Part shown: positions 55,658 through 64,000 of the stretch, one piece after another
Layout: every line of letters begins with the position of its first letter
How positions within the stretch are numbered: position 1 is the stretch's first letter
NCBI GenBank assembly: GCA_002456975.1
Contig: NTKA01000001.1
Location: 1-64,000, forward strand
Reading direction: 5' to 3'
Length of the DNA stretch: 64,000 nucleotides
From: Halieaceae bacterium MED-G27
Lineage (GTDB): Bacteria > Pseudomonadota > Gammaproteobacteria > Pseudomonadales > Halieaceae
Translations under genes and position numbers: made by a program
The notes under the pieces: generated by a model
Seen by the model: the letters and a program-made list of their open reading frames with translations, nothing else
Told to the model about the DNA's origin: nothing
Database searches by the model: none

Positions 55658-56881
55658 CTACCTCACCATCGTGTTCAAATCGAATATCGGCAACAGAATT
55701 GCCATAACTATTGTCAGCACCAAACCACCCATGACTACCACCATAATAGGCTCAAATAGCCCCATAACGGTGCCTAGCGTCATCTCCAGCTCACGCTCCT
55801 GATTCGTGGCAGAGCGCTCCAACATTGTTTCTAACTCACCGCTGGTTTCACCAGACGCTACCATGTGAACCATCATGGGTGGAAAAAAGGGTTCTTGACT
55901 CAGCGCCCGGTTAAGACTTGAGCCTTCCTGAACCTTCAGCGCCACGTCAGCACTCGCATCGCGAAGCACCAAGTTATTCATCACAGCACCGGCGATCTTG
56001 AGTGCATCGAGTAGCGGTACACCTGACGCCATCAGGATACTCAGTGTGGATGAAAAGCGTGCGGTATCCATGCCGATTAGCACGCCATTGATACCAGGCA
56101 CCCGCAACAAAACCGCATCCCAGATTCGTTTGTTCGACGGTTTTTTCAGCAACCGTTGGAATGCAATAAGCGTGACGATGATGGTCGCGAGTAAAACCAA
56201 ACCAAATTCGGTCAAAAAATCACTGGTTGCGATTAAGGCAACCGTCAATGGCGGTAAGTCCGTCTTAGTCTGGGCAAAGATCCCCACCAACTCTGGAACC
56301 ACAAATACCATCAACGCAGTCACTACGGCGATGGCAACACCGATTAGCACGAAGGGGTAAATCAATGCCATCTGCAGTTTCTGCGCCGTATGCTGCCGCG
56401 ACTCGGTATATTCGGCGAGCTGCTCTAACACGGGACCCAACTGCCCTGCCTGCTCTCCCGCATTTACCATGGCTCTATACATATCGCCGAAGGTCTGCGG
56501 AAACTGGCCCATGGCATGAGCCAGAGTATGCCCCTCGGCCACCTTCGATCTCACCTGCAATAGCAGTGCCTTCGTCGATGACTTGCGCGTTTGTTCAGCC
56601 GCTGCCTGCAAGCACTCATCGAGCGGTAAGGCCGATGCCACCAGAGTCGATAACTGTCGGGTCACTAATGACACTTCGGCTGCACTCAGTCGAGGGCTAA
56701 ATAGCCCAGCACGCGCAACAGAGCCTGATATGAGTGGCCGTTTGGACGCGGTTGCCACCTCAAGTGGTCGTAATTTCTTCGATCGAAGTTGCGCTCTAAT
56801 CTGACGCTCCGAGTCTCCCTCGAGGACGCCTTTGACAACTTTGCCACTGCTATCGAGAGCCTTGTACTTAAAAGCAGGCAT
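55658..56881 (-). CDS. gspF: Type II secretion system inner membrane protein F
   Basis: FKYKALDSSGKVVKGVLEGDSERQIRAQLRSKKLRPLEV, multiple TM segments, GEQAGQLGPVLEQLAEY. Confidence 0.96.
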   Translation of the reverse strand: MPAFKYKALDSSGKVVKGVLEGDSERQIRAQLRSKKLRPLEVATASKRPLISGSVARAGLFSPRLSAAEVSLVTRQLSTLVASALPLDECLQAAAEQTRKSSTKALLLQVRSKVAEGHTLAHAMGQFPQTFGDMYRAMVNAGEQAGQLGPVLEQLAEYTESRQHTAQKLQMALIYPFVLIGVAIAVVTALMVFVVPELVGIFAQTKTDLPPLTVALIATSDFLTEFGLVLLATIIVTLIAFQRLLKKPSNKRIWDAVLLRVPGINGVLIGMDTARFSSTLSILMASGVPLLDALKIAGAVMNNLVLRDASADVALKVQEGSSLNRALSQEPFFPPMMVHMVASGETSGELETMLERSATNQERELEMTLGTVMGLFEPIMVVVMGGLVLTIVMAILLPIFDLNTMVR

Positions 56882-56882
56882 G

Positions 56883-58424
56883 CTATTTCACCGACGTGAC
56901 GCGGAGCACCTCTTCGAGTGTCGTTTCCCCCGCGAGGATTCGTCGGCGACCATCAGCCTGAATGCCAGGGTATTGTTGTCGCGCCACCGCTAGCATAGCC
57001 TGCTCGCTCTCAGCCTCGTGGATAGCAGTCCTCAAGGTTTCATCAACTTCGATCAACTCGTAAATACCTGTCCTGCCGCGATAGCCCGTCATGTTGCAAC
57101 GAGCACAACCCTTGGCATGATGAATCTCACGGTGCTCGTCGACTGAAAGACCCAACAACTCGAGCTCTCCCGCTGTCGCGGGTGCCGATTCTCGACAATC
57201 GACACATAACAGCCGCACTAATCGTTGAGCCATGACTGCGACCAAGCTCGAAGACAACAAAAACGGCTCAACACCCATGTCCTGAAGACGCGTCACCGCG
57301 CCGATCGCCGTATTCGTGTGAAGCGTGGACAACACCAAGTGCCCCGTCAGTGAGGCTTGCACGGCAATTTCTGCTGTTTCTAAGTCTCGAATCTCACCGA
57401 CCATCACCACGTCGGGATCCTGACGCAATATCGCGCGCAAACCCCTCGCGAATGTCATATCCACCTTGGTATTCACCTGAGTCTGACCGACCCCGGGCAG
57501 CATATACTCGACAGGGTCTTCAATAGTCAGGATATTTCGGGAGCTCTGGTTGATACTGGACAAACCTGCATACAAGGTCGTGGTCTTACCCGAACCTGTG
57601 GGACCGGTCACCAAAATAATACCGTGAGGTCTTGCAAGCGCGTTACGGTAGCCCGACTCCACCTGCTCATTCATCCTAAGCTGCTGTAACTCGAGCTGAC
57701 CCGCCTGCTTGTCTAGCAATCGCAGTACAACACGCTCACCGTGAGCTGAGGGAATCGTCGACATCCGAATATCAATCGCGTGCCCGGCAATCCTGACAGA
57801 GATACGTCCGTCTTGCGGAACGCGCTTCTCCGCAATATCGAGCTTGGCCATCACTTTGAGACGTGACACCAACAGGGGCGCGAGCATGCGCTTGGGTGAC
57901 AACACCTCGGCTAGGACACCGTCAATCCGATAACGCACTGAAAGACGATCTTCAAACGTCTCGATGTGGATATCAGATGCCTGCTCTTTAACTGCCTGAG
58001 ACAAAATAGCATTGATCAATCGAATAATCGGGGCGTCGTCCTCGGCATCCATCAAGTCCCCGAGGTCGGGAATCTCATCGACTAATCGGGCTAGATCAAC
58101 ATCAGAAGAGAGATCCTCAGCCATTTGCGCTGCCTGATTTTGGCTGCGCTGGTAAGCACCTGTCAGTCTAGACTGAAACATCGACTCATCGACTGCTTCC
58201 AAACTAAAAGCTCGACCAGCACACCGCCTCACCTCGAGCAGGGTTTCGGTCGCTAATGGCGCCACGTAAACGAGAGTGAGTAATTCGTTGCTATATTCAA
58301 GTACCGCTTGATTCGCTTTGGCATAGGCGAAGGGTAATCGACCGGGGAGATTCGCCTCGGTGAGTACCTCGTCCTCGACAACTAAGCTGTCCAGTTCGTC
58401 GATGGCATCGACCGCGGTATTCAC
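56883..58424 (-). CDS. gspE: Type II secretion system ATPase E
   Basis: Walker A VTGPTGSGKTTTLYAGL, EDPVEYMLPGVGQTQVN, four-Cys zinc motif LLCVDCRE...CARCNMTGYRGRTGIYELI. Confidence 0.97.
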   Translation of the reverse strand: MNTAVDAIDELDSLVVEDEVLTEANLPGRLPFAYAKANQAVLEYSNELLTLVYVAPLATETLLEVRRCAGRAFSLEAVDESMFQSRLTGAYQRSQNQAAQMAEDLSSDVDLARLVDEIPDLGDLMDAEDDAPIIRLINAILSQAVKEQASDIHIETFEDRLSVRYRIDGVLAEVLSPKRMLAPLLVSRLKVMAKLDIAEKRVPQDGRISVRIAGHAIDIRMSTIPSAHGERVVLRLLDKQAGQLELQQLRMNEQVESGYRNALARPHGIILVTGPTGSGKTTTLYAGLSSINQSSRNILTIEDPVEYMLPGVGQTQVNTKVDMTFARGLRAILRQDPDVVMVGEIRDLETAEIAVQASLTGHLVLSTLHTNTAIGAVTRLQDMGVEPFLLSSSLVAVMAQRLVRLLCVDCRESAPATAGELELLGLSVDEHREIHHAKGCARCNMTGYRGRTGIYELIEVDETLRTAIHEAESEQAMLAVARQQYPGIQADGRRRILAGETTLEEVLRVTSVK

Positions 58425-60430
58425 TGGCTTGCGTCCTCAAGGCTCTCGGGAGAGACCTCTCTGAGCGTGTTAATGCGCTCTTCCCACGTGGGTAACAACG
58501 GCATAGCGTCGTCGTCTAAAAACATCAAACCTTGGTCACGGCGCAGTCGCTGCTGATCCCGAATGTATCGATATTTCTCAGCTGTTGCACCGGCGAGATC
58601 GGCATCGTCACGAATAATCGTGGAGCGGATAAACACCAACAAATTCGATTTCGTTACCGATACCACGTCGCTTCGGAATAGACGGCCAAAAAAGGGAATA
58701 TCCGACAACACCGGTACGCCTTGCTGAGAGTCCTGTATGTCGTCTTTGACCAAGCCACCGAGCACGACAATATCCCCGTCTTTGGCAAGCACTTTGGTCT
58801 CGATTTTTCGTTCATTGGTAATCACGTCGGAGGCGGACAACACTTGCTGCGATATACTCGACACCTCCTGCACGATATCCATAACAACCGAATCGCCCTC
58901 GTTGATCTGAGGTGTCACCTCGAGGGTGACACCCACATTCTCACGCTGAATGGTCTGGAAAGGATTAGCCACGCCATTGGACGCGCCGGTATTGGTGTAA
59001 CTACCGGTGACGAACGGAACTTGCTGGCCCACCGTGATGAATGCTTCCTCGTTATCGAGGGTAAGCAAGCTTGGTGTCGACAGGATGTTGGCATTGCCTT
59101 GCGATTCGAGCGCGCTCAAAATAGTGGTCATGGTCAATGAATCGTCAACCACGCCCCAACCGAACGTGGTCCCGGGTACCCCCGCGAGCGCACCCGCCAC
59201 ATTGCGGATGCTAATGTCGTTCGATGTACCGTCTGCAGGCAATAGCGCTGCGCCCAAAGTGCCATTTCGCCCTTGCTGCGCCGAGCTTGTGCTGATATTG
59301 GAGCCAAAAGCACCGCTACTGTTAGCAAATAGCCACTGCAGACCTAGCTCGCGACCCTCCACGACTTCCATTTCAACAATGATCGCCTCTACGAGAACCT
59401 GCGCTCTCCGGATATCAAGGCGCGCAATGACCGCCTCTAGAGCTGCCATCTCATCGGCTTCGGCTGTGATAATCAGGCTGTTAGTACCTGCGTCGGCCTC
59501 GATTGTTGATTTGGCGGAGTTGCTATTTCTATTTCGATCTCCGCCCTCATCGAGTCGGGAGATATTTTGCATTACACGAGTGAGCACTTCGGCGACTTCG
59601 GTAGCGTCGGCGTATTCGAGGTACATCACTCGCACATTGCCACTTTGCTCTAGAGGAATATCCAGATAAGCGATGAGGGTAAGGATTCGTTCGATACTCA
59701 CTTCATCGGCTGTAATGATGACGCTATTGGAACGCTTATCGGCCACCAGCGTTGCCTCTTCGTTTGCATCGCCGTCACGCGCCCGCGACTTCTCAAGGGT
59801 TTTCAGCATTTCTACGACATCAGTCGCCACGCCGTACTTGAGTGTTACCAATTCCGTCTTTTTGACGGCCGATTGATCCATGTTGTCAATAATCTCAGCG
59901 ATTCGCTGAATGTTGGCTCTGATATCCGAAATGATAATGGCATTACTCGGGGTGTATGCCGCCATGTGTGCTTGCTGCGGTACAAGCGGCCTAAGTACCG
60001 GGATCAGCTTTGCAGCGGACACGTTCTCCAAGCGGATAACCTGTGTAACGTATTCGTCGTTTATCAGGGAGGCAGTGCCAGACACGACATCGACCGGTGC
60101 TGATCGTGCGTTCTTATTAGGGATGACGCGAACAATCCCACCACTGCGCACCGCGGTGTAGCCATGAACATCGAGAATAGACAGGAACAAGTCGTACAGC
60201 TCTGCCTTGGTCACAGGCTTACTAGAGACAACTTTCACCTTACCCTTCACCGAGGGGTCTACTACGATCGTAGTGCCAGTAACATCGGACACAAATTGGA
60301 TGAGCTCCTGAATGTCGGTGTCTTTTAAGTTAACTGTGAACTCTTGAGCAACTGCGACTTTCGTCGCTACCACACCCGACGCCACAAGAAGTGCGAGAGT
60401 AAGCGCTCTAATTACTGACTTAATGCGCAT
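58421..60430 (-). CDS. gspD: Type II secretion system secretin D
   Basis: N-domains FTVNLKDTDIQELIQFVSDVTG; secretin core VGQQVPFVTGSYTNTG, VTPQINEGDSVVMDIVQEVSS. Confidence 0.97.
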   Translation of the reverse strand: MRIKSVIRALTLALLVASGVVATKVAVAQEFTVNLKDTDIQELIQFVSDVTGTTIVVDPSVKGKVKVVSSKPVTKAELYDLFLSILDVHGYTAVRSGGIVRVIPNKNARSAPVDVVSGTASLINDEYVTQVIRLENVSAAKLIPVLRPLVPQQAHMAAYTPSNAIIISDIRANIQRIAEIIDNMDQSAVKKTELVTLKYGVATDVVEMLKTLEKSRARDGDANEEATLVADKRSNSVIITADEVSIERILTLIAYLDIPLEQSGNVRVMYLEYADATEVAEVLTRVMQNISRLDEGGDRNRNSNSAKSTIEADAGTNSLIITAEADEMAALEAVIARLDIRRAQVLVEAIIVEMEVVEGRELGLQWLFANSSGAFGSNISTSSAQQGRNGTLGAALLPADGTSNDISIRNVAGALAGVPGTTFGWGVVDDSLTMTTILSALESQGNANILSTPSLLTLDNEEAFITVGQQVPFVTGSYTNTGASNGVANPFQTIQRENVGVTLEVTPQINEGDSVVMDIVQEVSSISQQVLSASDVITNERKIETKVLAKDGDIVVLGGLVKDDIQDSQQGVPVLSDIPFFGRLFRSDVVSVTKSNLLVFIRSTIIRDDADLAGATAEKYRYIRDQQRLRRDQGLMFLDDDAMPLLPTWEERINTLREVSPESLEDASQ

Positions 60431-60450
60431 GAATTCAGTTGCTCCTAATC

Positions 60451-61470
60451 CTAGTTGCTCAAGCTTACGCTTATTGTGAGCGCGCTGCCCCCGCGCTCGA
60501 TATCAAAGGTGGCCCCAGTGGCCTCTCGCATTAACTGGTAGAGACGAACTGTATTGCTGGGATCACTCAGAGAATACCCATTCACCGCCGTAACGATATC
60601 ACCCGGCTCAAATCCCAAGGCCGCAAACTTACCTCGATCCCGACCGGGAGTAATCCGGTACCCGCGAAGGCCATTGTCGCCCTGCACTGCACTGATCGAT
60701 ACCAGTGATGCCAACGATTGTGGATCATCATAAAGCTGCTGGCGATAACCGGAAGCCAATTGATTCGCCTCACCCTGATCTACTTGCCGCGCCTGCACTG
60801 CTGGTCGACTGCTGCTCGTCTGAGCACGTGGCGTCACGGTGGGTGTGGCAGGTGTAGGCAGTATTCCAACGATGCCGTTGTCATCAAATAAGGTGAGTAA
60901 CTCATAGGTTCCATTGTTATCGATCACTACCTGCTTCGCCAAAATTTTGGCAAGTGTCACCTTACCGTTGGCCGGCAGGGCATCCCCCACCGAGTAGAGC
61001 GCCTGTCGCTTTTTGGCTTCTATCATCGCGCTACCGAGACCATCGTCGGTCGATGACACAATCCCGGTCAATACCAGTGCCAACGACGTTTCTTTGGCAC
61101 CGTCCTCAATCCCCTCTCGCGGGTTGCTAACGGTCGACGTTGGAGAGGTAGTCGAAAGTGCCGACCCATCAACCGACCCAAAGATGTTGAGGCCCATGAT
61201 CGACGACACATCGATAACTTCGAGTTCCGCCGGAGAAGCGCTCGTAATTTCGGGTGGGTTAATGATTGCAGTGGGCGACACGGTTACAGCTGGAGCGCGG
61301 TAAAACGACCACAGTAGCGACGACGCGCTGCTGATCACCCAAAGCGAAGCCAACATAATCATTCCAAGCTGCAATCGAGCAAGACGCTCGGGATCCGCCA
61401 GCCAGCGGATGGCGGCTCGACTTCGTTGCTCCAAATTCGCCGAAGCGGCAAGGTTAGCCCAATCGGTCAT
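60451..61470 (-). CDS. gspC: Type II secretion system protein C
   Basis: N-terminal TM, HR-like region LALVLTGIVSSTDDGLGSAMIEAKKRQALYSVGDAL, C-terminal PDZ-like domain. Confidence 0.92.
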   Translation of the reverse strand: MTDWANLAASANLEQRSRAAIRWLADPERLARLQLGMIMLASLWVISSASSLLWSFYRAPAVTVSPTAIINPPEITSASPAELEVIDVSSIMGLNIFGSVDGSALSTTSPTSTVSNPREGIEDGAKETSLALVLTGIVSSTDDGLGSAMIEAKKRQALYSVGDALPANGKVTLAKILAKQVVIDNNGTYELLTLFDDNGIVGILPTPATPTVTPRAQTSSSRPAVQARQVDQGEANQLASGYRQQLYDDPQSLASLVSISAVQGDNGLRGYRITPGRDRGKFAALGFEPGDIVTAVNGYSLSDPSNTVRLYQLMREATGATFDIERGGSALTISVSLSN

Positions 61471-61552
61471 CGATTTACTCGACCTATTACTCAGTAGTTA
61501 AGTGTAACGGATACCAGACCTTTTCTGATGACGTTGCGATGAACAACGTCGC

Positions 61553-62629
61553 TTATTCATCCGCTTCTGTCGCGACCGAGGGGTCTCCCGCCGCCACATC
61601 GTTATCGGCTTCCTGTAATAACTCAGCGGCAATCTCCACGGCATCACCCGACCCCAACTGCTCCACTGAGCACAGGCGGAAACCACGCTGAACATTGAGT
61701 TCCACCATGCCGCCGGCACCATCATCGATCATTTTGCCGTTCAGCCCCTGATGCCAGCGAGTGACGATCGCCGGAACACTCTCCTCGGGCGCATCAACGA
61801 CCATGATGCCAAAGGAATTGAGGCCAATACGTCCAACCGAGTCCGTATCACGCAACCCTGCCGCGATTTGACTCGCAGCACCACGTAATACCCGGCTTTG
61901 AATATGCCGTTGAGATAGATTATTCATGTGCTCCAGCCCCGATAGTCGCAGCACCACGACCAATGGCGGACGCTTATTGCGCCTTGCGCGATTTATCTCT
62001 CGCTCCAGATCTCGAATCAGTCCGGCTCGGTTGGCCACGTTGGTGACGGGATCAAGTAGTACAAAATCACCGATGCGATTCATTTCGATGAGTCGATTTA
62101 TGAGCAGCGGGACCTTAGCGACAAAGCTCTGCAAGGCTTCAAGTTGTCGCTCGTCGGTCATCACCAGTGTTCGCGGATTTGCGACATGGATACTGCCGAC
62201 CAACACGCCCTGATCCTCCACGGGTATCAGCATCGACTGCTCAACCGTCTCGGCGTTCTCGAACAATTCAATATCTTTGTAAACACCGCCCGGAGTTCGA
62301 TCCCAAGAAGGCTCTTCCGAATAGAGATTCATCAGGTCAAAACTGTCGGTAAGCAACCTCACCTTGCCAGATACGACTCCGACAGGATCGAAATGTCGAT
62401 CGAGTTCATCGACAGGGTCATGGAGCCAAAACTCCACAAAGCTTCCGCTCGCTAACTGACGAACACCCGATAGAGCGAGATCGAGTAAATCATATAGCTC
62501 CGTGGCGGTGATCATTTGGTGCTCTATCTTCGCCAGCTGCACCGTCGCGGCATCGGCTACGGGAGCCAGAGTGCCAGCGTCTTCGACGTACATTGTGCTG
62601 TCAGCCATCGCGCTTTCGGCATGAATCAT
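61553..62629 (-). CDS. GAF-like plus degenerate GGDEF domain protein
   Basis: DPVTNVANRAGLIRDLEREINRARRNKRPPLVVV...DSVGRIGLNSFGIMVV: GGDEF fold with the signature replaced by GLNSF. Confidence 0.85.
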   Translation of the reverse strand: MIHAESAMADSTMYVEDAGTLAPVADAATVQLAKIEHQMITATELYDLLDLALSGVRQLASGSFVEFWLHDPVDELDRHFDPVGVVSGKVRLLTDSFDLMNLYSEEPSWDRTPGGVYKDIELFENAETVEQSMLIPVEDQGVLVGSIHVANPRTLVMTDERQLEALQSFVAKVPLLINRLIEMNRIGDFVLLDPVTNVANRAGLIRDLEREINRARRNKRPPLVVVLRLSGLEHMNNLSQRHIQSRVLRGAASQIAAGLRDTDSVGRIGLNSFGIMVVDAPEESVPAIVTRWHQGLNGKMIDDGAGGMVELNVQRGFRLCSVEQLGSGDAVEIAAELLQEADNDVAAGDPSVATEADE

Positions 62630-62730
62630 GCCGCCCCAATGTTGGTAGAGAGTTTTACAAAGCCAAGATGCCGCTGAACTCGCATCAGGTGCTCACCACA
62701 AGAGTTTAGATCTGTTAAACTTAGATTTAA

Positions 62731-62812
62731 ACCTGCGGGGTGGCATTAGCCTGAGATACGTTGTCGTAAACCCGTTGCACCTGAACCGGATAATGCCGGC
62801 GTAGGAACAGGT
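62731..62812 (+). ncRNA. TPP riboswitch (THI element) aptamer
   Basis: ACCTGcGGGGTGGCATTAGCCTGAGAT...AACCCGTTGCACCTGAACCGGATAATGCCGGCGTAGGAACAGGT matches the conserved THI-box core; P1 pairing ACCTG/CAGGT. Confidence 0.96.
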
Positions 62813-62836
62813 CAGCTCGTCAGAGCGTTACTCCTT

Positions 62837-62868
62837 ATCCTTGCTGTCTGATTCCCTATCGCAAGGAT
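62837..62868 (+). promoter_or_regulatory. Putative riboswitch expression platform: SD-sequestering hairpin
   Basis: ATCCTTGC-(16 nt)-GCAAGGAT perfect 8-bp stem; right arm contains AAGGA upstream of the ATG at 62879. Confidence 0.65.
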
Positions 62869-62878
62869 TGAAAGCCCA

Positions 62879-64000
62879 ATGCGTCCATATCAACAACTCA
62901 TGGTCGTGACCGCCATCAGCACAAGCGCTGTGTGGGTCACAGCATCGCCCTTAGAGGAAGTCATCGTCGAGGCCACACTGCTCGCATCGGATACCCAGAC
63001 TATCAGTCTCACCACCCTCGACAAGGAGGTATTGGATCAGCGCGGGACTACCCATCTAGAGGATGCGCTGACCCTCGCGGCAAATACTAATGCATCAGCT
63101 GGCGCGTCTCGCCAGCGTTTTTTTCAGATCAGAGGTATCGGTGAGCGAAGCCAGTTCATCGAGCCCAATAACCCCTCGGTCGTGGTGATGCTAGATGGCA
63201 TCGATATCAGTGGACTTGGGGGCGCCTTAACGAGCTATGACCTAAAGAAAATTGACGTACTACGAGGCCCTCAGGGGTCGAGAATGGGCGCTGGTGCGCT
63301 CGCTGGTCTAATAAATTTGACGACACAAAAACCCAGCGAAGCATCGGGAGTTAGCGCCAGCTTCGGAGCCGAGAGCTATGGTGGTAGCCGCGCCTCGGCT
63401 GCCATCAACGGCGCTATTGGTGGTGGCATTAACGCAAGGCTCGCACACCAGCAATATCGGTCTGATGGCTGGTCAAAAAACACCCATCTCAATCGAGAAG
63501 ACACCAACGCGCGCGATGAGCAAACAACCCGCTTGGGACTGCAATATCAAAAAGATCAGCAACAGCTTGACCTTGGGATTCATCATCTCGATATCGACAA
63601 CGGCTACGACGCGTTCTCGCTCGACAACACTCGCACGACACTCAGCGATGAACCCGGTGAGGATTCTCTTGATTTGACTGCCGCACGACTCGCCTGGCAA
63701 TACTCAGGAGTTGTTCTCGACCACACGATGCAACTCAGTAGCGTGTCAGCGGACAGCGTTTACAGCTACGACGAGGACTGGAGTTTCGTCGGCATCGCAC
63801 CGGGCTGGGAATACAGCTCTTTCGACGCCTATCTTAGATCTAACGATCGCTCAGCATTCGAATGGCGCAGTTCGCAAAGTAGCGATAGCAGAGACTGGGT
63901 GGCCGGTATTTATCTTCGGCAGGACGAAGAGCAACTGACTCGAAACTACACCTATCTCAGTGCACCGTTTTATAGCCGCAATAAGGTAGAAACAAGGGCC
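62879..64000 (+). CDS. TonB-dependent receptor (3' truncated by the window edge); candidate thiamine or thiamine-precursor outer membrane transporter
   Basis: 374 codons open to 64000, so absent from the ORF track: MRPYQQLMVVTAISTSAVWVTASPLEEVIVEATLLA...FFQIRGIGERSQFIEPNNPSVVVMLDGIDISG...KIDVLRGPQGSRMGAGALAGLINLTTQKP (plug domain). Confidence 0.93.
   Translation, partial: MRPYQQLMVVTAISTSAVWVTASPLEEVIVEATLLASDTQTISLTTLDKEVLDQRGTTHLEDALTLAANTNASAGASRQRFFQIRGIGERSQFIEPNNPSVVVMLDGIDISGLGGALTSYDLKKIDVLRGPQGSRMGAGALAGLINLTTQKPSEASGVSASFGAESYGGSRASAAINGAIGGGINARLAHQQYRSDGWSKNTHLNREDTNARDEQTTRLGLQYQKDQQQLDLGIHHLDIDNGYDAFSLDNTRTTLSDEPGEDSLDLTAARLAWQYSGVVLDHTMQLSSVSADSVYSYDEDWSFVGIAPGWEYSSFDAYLRSNDRSAFEWRSSQSSDSRDWVAGIYLRQDEEQLTRNYTYLSAPFYSRNKVETRA

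Follow-up and report, generated by a model that had tools for sequence, protein, structure and literature searches.

A TPP riboswitch-linked TonB-dependent receptor heads a predicted thiamine uptake and activation operon in a Halieaceae bacterium

Described thiamine receptors and the present locus

TonB-dependent receptors that are encoded behind TPP riboswitches and co-localised with PnuT have been predicted by comparative genomics as putative thiamin TBDTs (PMC2771747, after Rodionov et al. 2002), and these form several unrelated sequence clusters (PMC2771747). Such a receptor is part of the OMthi-pnuT-tnr3 system of Bacteroides thetaiotaomicron (BT2390, BT2396-2397), where deletion of OMthi or pnuT in a biosynthesis-minus background increases the thiamine requirement roughly tenfold (PMC5613172). 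The predicted B1 receptors of marine bacteria designated omr1 likewise are TonB-type receptors near a TDP riboswitch (PMC10881298, PMC12442306), and omr1 with a nearby riboswitch has been found by a marine survey in SAR86 (PMC10881298). The sections of these surveys that deal with omr1 call its specificity unclear (PMC10881298), a view still held in PMC12442306, and they do not describe the operon and the expression platform presented here.

The locus reported here lies at the end of a 64,000-nucleotide stretch of DNA from Halieaceae bacterium MED-G27, which we refer to as the window. The combination of a TPP riboswitch, a TonB receptor and PnuT has been described before, and the locus is a well-supported further example of it. 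With the B. thetaiotaomicron system it shares the TPP riboswitch, the TonB-dependent receptor, a PnuT carrier and a downstream, here predicted, thiamine-phosphorylating enzyme, a likeness of gene content. It differs in that it comes from another phylum, carries an APH-fold kinase in place of Tnr3, contains an extra YkoF-like protein and belongs to organisms whose biosynthesis genes are mostly gone. The features by which OMthi and omr1 receptors are recognised, a TPP riboswitch upstream and PnuT in the operon, are both present, and the assignment has the same basis as that of the putative thiamin TBDTs, namely PnuT neighbourhood and riboswitch control. The YkoF-like protein belongs by profile to the same small fold family as the thiamin/HMP-binding protein YkoF of Bacillus subtilis, but is a single short domain beside PnuT and not a component of a YkoEDC transporter. 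Our work adds the structure of the operon with its YkoF-like partner, a near-complete linkage within the family, a substrate prediction narrowed to intact thiamine, and a sequestor hairpin that is conserved. In the sea vitamin B1 is in short supply, and many bacteria are unable to synthesise it; the locus is probably the way by which B1 enters the cells of an entire bacterial family, and it comes with a clear substrate prediction, which is testable in culturable relatives (Pseudidiomarina is among the named matches).

Gene content and gene context make it very likely that the locus is a TPP-repressed operon for thiamine uptake and activation. Substrate, direction of control, the part played by each protein and the change from one hairpin state to the other are all inferred. 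In this model, plentiful TPP would be bound by the aptamer, and a downstream hairpin would hide the ribosome-binding site, so that translation of the operon stays low. Under TPP shortage the hairpin would open, the TonB-dependent receptor would be made and thiamine would cross the outer membrane. The PnuT-type carrier would then take it across the inner membrane, the YkoF-like small protein would hold it inside the cell, and the operon kinase would trap it as thiamine phosphate, from which ThiL would produce TPP. It is conceivable, if rather doubtful, that the fixed trio of receptor, YkoF-like protein and PnuT makes up a thiamine route of its own in gammaproteobacteria. The YkoF-like protein would then serve as a cytoplasmic thiamine trap or hand-over factor, which gives the PnuT facilitator its direction and delivers thiamine to the kinase.

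Aptamer, receptor and downstream genes

The initial annotation placed a THI-box aptamer at 62731-62812, which falls inside a complete TPP riboswitch aptamer (THI element) at 62726-62824 on the plus strand. The proposed Infernal search bore this out, as cmscan matched RF00059 over its full length (model positions 1-105 of 105) with 72.7 bits (E 2.2e-12 for the window), well above the gathering score of 54.3 bits, and a search of the source assembly with RF00059 found this TPP aptamer only. The ATG at 62879, 66 nt past position 62812 and 54 nt past the end of the Rfam match, opens the gene of a TonB-dependent receptor, whose 5' part occupies 62879-64000 of the plus strand. It had been stated that no thi gene intervenes and that the receptor gene has no stop within the window; indeed no gene at all lies in between, and the reading frame is open at 64000 and ends on the 123.5-kb contig at position 64960, to give a protein of 693 amino acids (coordinates beyond 64000 are those of the contig and continue the numbering of the window). 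The assignment as a TonB-dependent receptor holds, with Plug (PF07715, 51.9 bits) and TonB_dep_Rec barrel (PF00593, 96.8 bits) domains both above the Pfam cut-offs.

The receptor is followed by four genes, which lie on the same strand and almost touch one another in what is a tight operon. The first (64965-65225) encodes an 86-residue Thiamine_BP/YkoF-like protein, which passes the cut-offs of PF01910 (25.5 versus 24.9 bits) and PF07615 (22.0 versus 21) narrowly; a profile built from 17 relatives finds structures of YkoF with an E value near 1e-9, and 13 of 17 relatives match Thiamine_BP/YkoF at E<=0.001. The second (65231-65791) answers the suggestion that inner-membrane thiamine transporters be sought past position 64000, since it encodes a 186-residue membrane protein of the PnuC/PnuT transporter family (PF04973, NMN_transporter family, 151 bits; TIGR01528 above cut-off; 4qtn matched). 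Its NCBIfam match TIGR01528, PnuC, is a nicotinamide riboside model, and it is the gene context that suggests thiamine. The third gene, 65761 (or 65779)-66603, encodes a kinase of the APH fold (PF01636 above cut-off), which retains the motifs H-x-D and DW(D/E)(Y/F) and bears a weak, distant likeness to ThiK and choline kinase. It is not a ThiK equivalog, as its score with the NCBIfam model TIGR02721 (23.1 bits) is far below the cut-off of 299.45; all 16 relatives match TIGR02721 below equivalog level or weakly, and likewise GntI. The run is closed by an ApbA/PanE-type reductase (66600-67502; PF02558/PF08546 and TIGR00745 above cut-off), all five genes being on the plus strand. A pantothenate-type ApbA/PanE enzyme accompanies the predicted thiamine uptake genes; in 22 of 40 family loci it is encoded on the receptor's strand and at a distance of no more than a few kb.

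The pairing of carrier and kinase bears on the form in which the vitamin would arrive. Free thiamine is small enough for porins, and a TonB receptor is most sensible for very dilute or bulky ligands, so that the receptor might import thiamine phosphates (TMP/TPP), or thiamine that is mainly phosphorylated or bound, from which sequence does not separate the free vitamin. A PnuT-type carrier and a kinase in one operon, however, fit an unphosphorylated molecule that is trapped by phosphorylation, and the operon showed no phosphatase gene; we therefore consider import of the phosphorylated or bound form unlikely and prefer that of free thiamine.

Conservation of the locus and the predicted substrate

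The linkage of aptamer and receptor was followed in 51 genomes, comprising the source assembly and 50 further genomes of its own family. In 49 of them a TPP aptamer precedes the receptor homologue by 55-268 bp (median 115); of the two exceptions, one has a receptor fragment and the aptamer on different contigs and in the other no aptamer was found. Five family aptamers do not adjoin a receptor, and three of these lie just upstream of thiC. In the 40 family loci that were read, the receptor is followed by PnuT in 37, by the kinase in 30, by ApbA in 22 and by Thiamine_BP in 18. The pairing of aptamer and receptor in the family is not due to chance. A receptor scan of named genomes gave 27 loci, the closest being those of Halieaceae MED611 (52%) and Luminiphilus (47%), followed by Pseudidiomarina, Thalassolituus, Bacterioplanes and others, and the same arrangement extends beyond the family to these latter genera and others. 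When 22 of the named-genome loci were scanned, 20 had a TPP aptamer, which in 18 lies upstream of the receptor on the same strand. The remaining two are from Pseudoalteromonas, where the aptamer precedes the neighbouring gene, which encodes ThiC in the one that was read (L017); in these P. luteoviolacea loci (L017, 2708-4933; L020, 2650-4876) the receptor is near a riboswitch-thiC unit and no aptamer was found before the receptor itself.

This regularity also speaks to the nature of the ligand. The named models and sequences nearest to the receptor are heme, siderophore and B12 receptors, which are not diagnostic of substrate and would at face value allow for a receptor that takes up an iron or other metal chelate and stands behind a TPP riboswitch by chance. 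Yet the receptor is linked to the aptamer in 49 of 51 family genomes, and the linkage recurs in further orders of the gammaproteobacteria, while PnuT comes next in 37 of 40 loci. This is far too regular for chance, and makes a metal chelate an exceedingly improbable ligand.

What, then, would be the substrate? The initial annotation had left it at thiamine or a precursor. Precursor transporters are also under TPP riboswitches, and the ligand described for YkoF-type proteins is thiamine or HMP (ykoF being listed as B1/HMP-binding); the receptor could thus be thought to import not intact thiamine but one of its precursors or a product of salvage (HMP, thiazole, amino-HMP). However, without the joining enzyme ThiE organisms cannot use HMP or thiazole, and those with ThiL can convert thiamine phosphate to TPP. 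Among the 51 family genomes thiC is present in three and ThiG at genuine scores (> 330 bits) in the same three; TMP-TENI (thiE-type) is above cut-off in six, half of which are the thiC/thiG bearers, whereas ThiL is above cut-off in 43. Many weak ThiG matches (19-25 bits) were set aside, by inference, as other TIM-barrel enzymes. In addition, the Cellvibrionales are stated, in the part of the survey that concerns them, to express omr1 and to be obligate B1 auxotrophs through lack of thiE (PMC12442306). Import of a precursor is thus very unlikely. Since thiC, thiG and thiE are mostly gone, thiL is kept and a kinase is in the operon, the predicted substrate is intact thiamine (or a phosphate ester of it) in preference to HMP or thiazole, which narrows the original proposal to thiamine, in line with the downstream Thiamine_BP/YkoF-like, PnuC/PnuT and kinase genes. 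Neither a missing RF00059 match nor downstream genes that indicate some other ligand, both named beforehand as grounds for rejection, turned up.

As to the proposed check of the source genome for thiC and thiG, these two genes, thiE and thiL were not found in the source assembly, but this is only 75% complete and the absences could be gaps, and it is the near-absence of thiC and thiG across the family that carries the point. Two ThiL matches in the source assembly were read as SelD-like and PurM-like proteins and not as ThiL. Genomes of the same genus that are 98-100% complete are without thiC and with thiL, and the source organism probably cannot make vitamin B1.

Two variants of the arrangement were seen. 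Nine family genomes (L094-L102) have receptor and PnuT together with no kinase of this type following, and there thiamine would therefore be phosphorylated by an enzyme encoded elsewhere. In two genomes, one of Bacteriovorax and one of an unclassified bacterium (L029, L031), the gene immediately behind an aptamer encodes a distant homologue of the receptor (29% and 25% identity, respectively), with no PnuT beside it.

The leader hairpin

The likely Shine-Dalgarno sequence (SD) of the receptor gene, AAGGA, 11 nt before the ATG, is contained in the arm GCAAGGAU (62861-62868, plus strand), which folding pairs with the anti-Shine-Dalgarno arm AUCCUUGC (62837-62844, plus strand) in a perfect 8-bp hairpin. 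The mean pairing probability of the SD in the window is 1.00 as compared to 0.66 in shuffled upstream sequence, with none of 100 shuffles as high; over all 51 loci it is 0.90 versus 0.78 in shuffles (Wilcoxon p 7e-5, an optimistic value as the leaders are related). The hairpins of relatives have different sequences in which the pairing is kept (GGUUCUC/GGAGAACC, GGGUCUC/GGAGACUC and GGAUUAUUUC/GGAAAUGAUCC). Conservation of the sequestor hairpin despite sequence change suggests that the operon is probably controlled at the level of translation, by sequestration of the SD. Translational control is an established mode of riboswitch action (PMC2258182).

A pairing that would compete with the hairpin was also looked for. 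UUAUCC (62835-62840), which overlaps the anti-SD arm, is complementary to GGAUAA of the aptamer (62788-62793), a match of 6 bp that is not significant alone, and in about nine relatives a match of 8-9 bp is seen (CCGGUUCU with AGAACCGG). The longest aptamer-leader complement has a mean of 6.42 over all loci as compared to 5.80 in shuffles (6 bp in the window). That aptamer and leader generally form an anti-sequestor pairing is therefore a suggestion, convincing in a subset of relatives only. The modelled fold has the SD hairpin closed with or without the aptamer formed and no switching was seen; unconstrained folding of aptamer plus leader did not recover the aptamer and was no better than that of shuffles.

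On its other side the leader borders on a divergent gene run on the minus strand of the window (55658-62629), which consists of GspF-, GspE-, GspD- and GspC-like type II secretion genes, then a gene for a GGDEF-domain protein. Genes of a similar kind also precede the receptor in L005 and L007, which are loci of Halieaceae and Luminiphilus.
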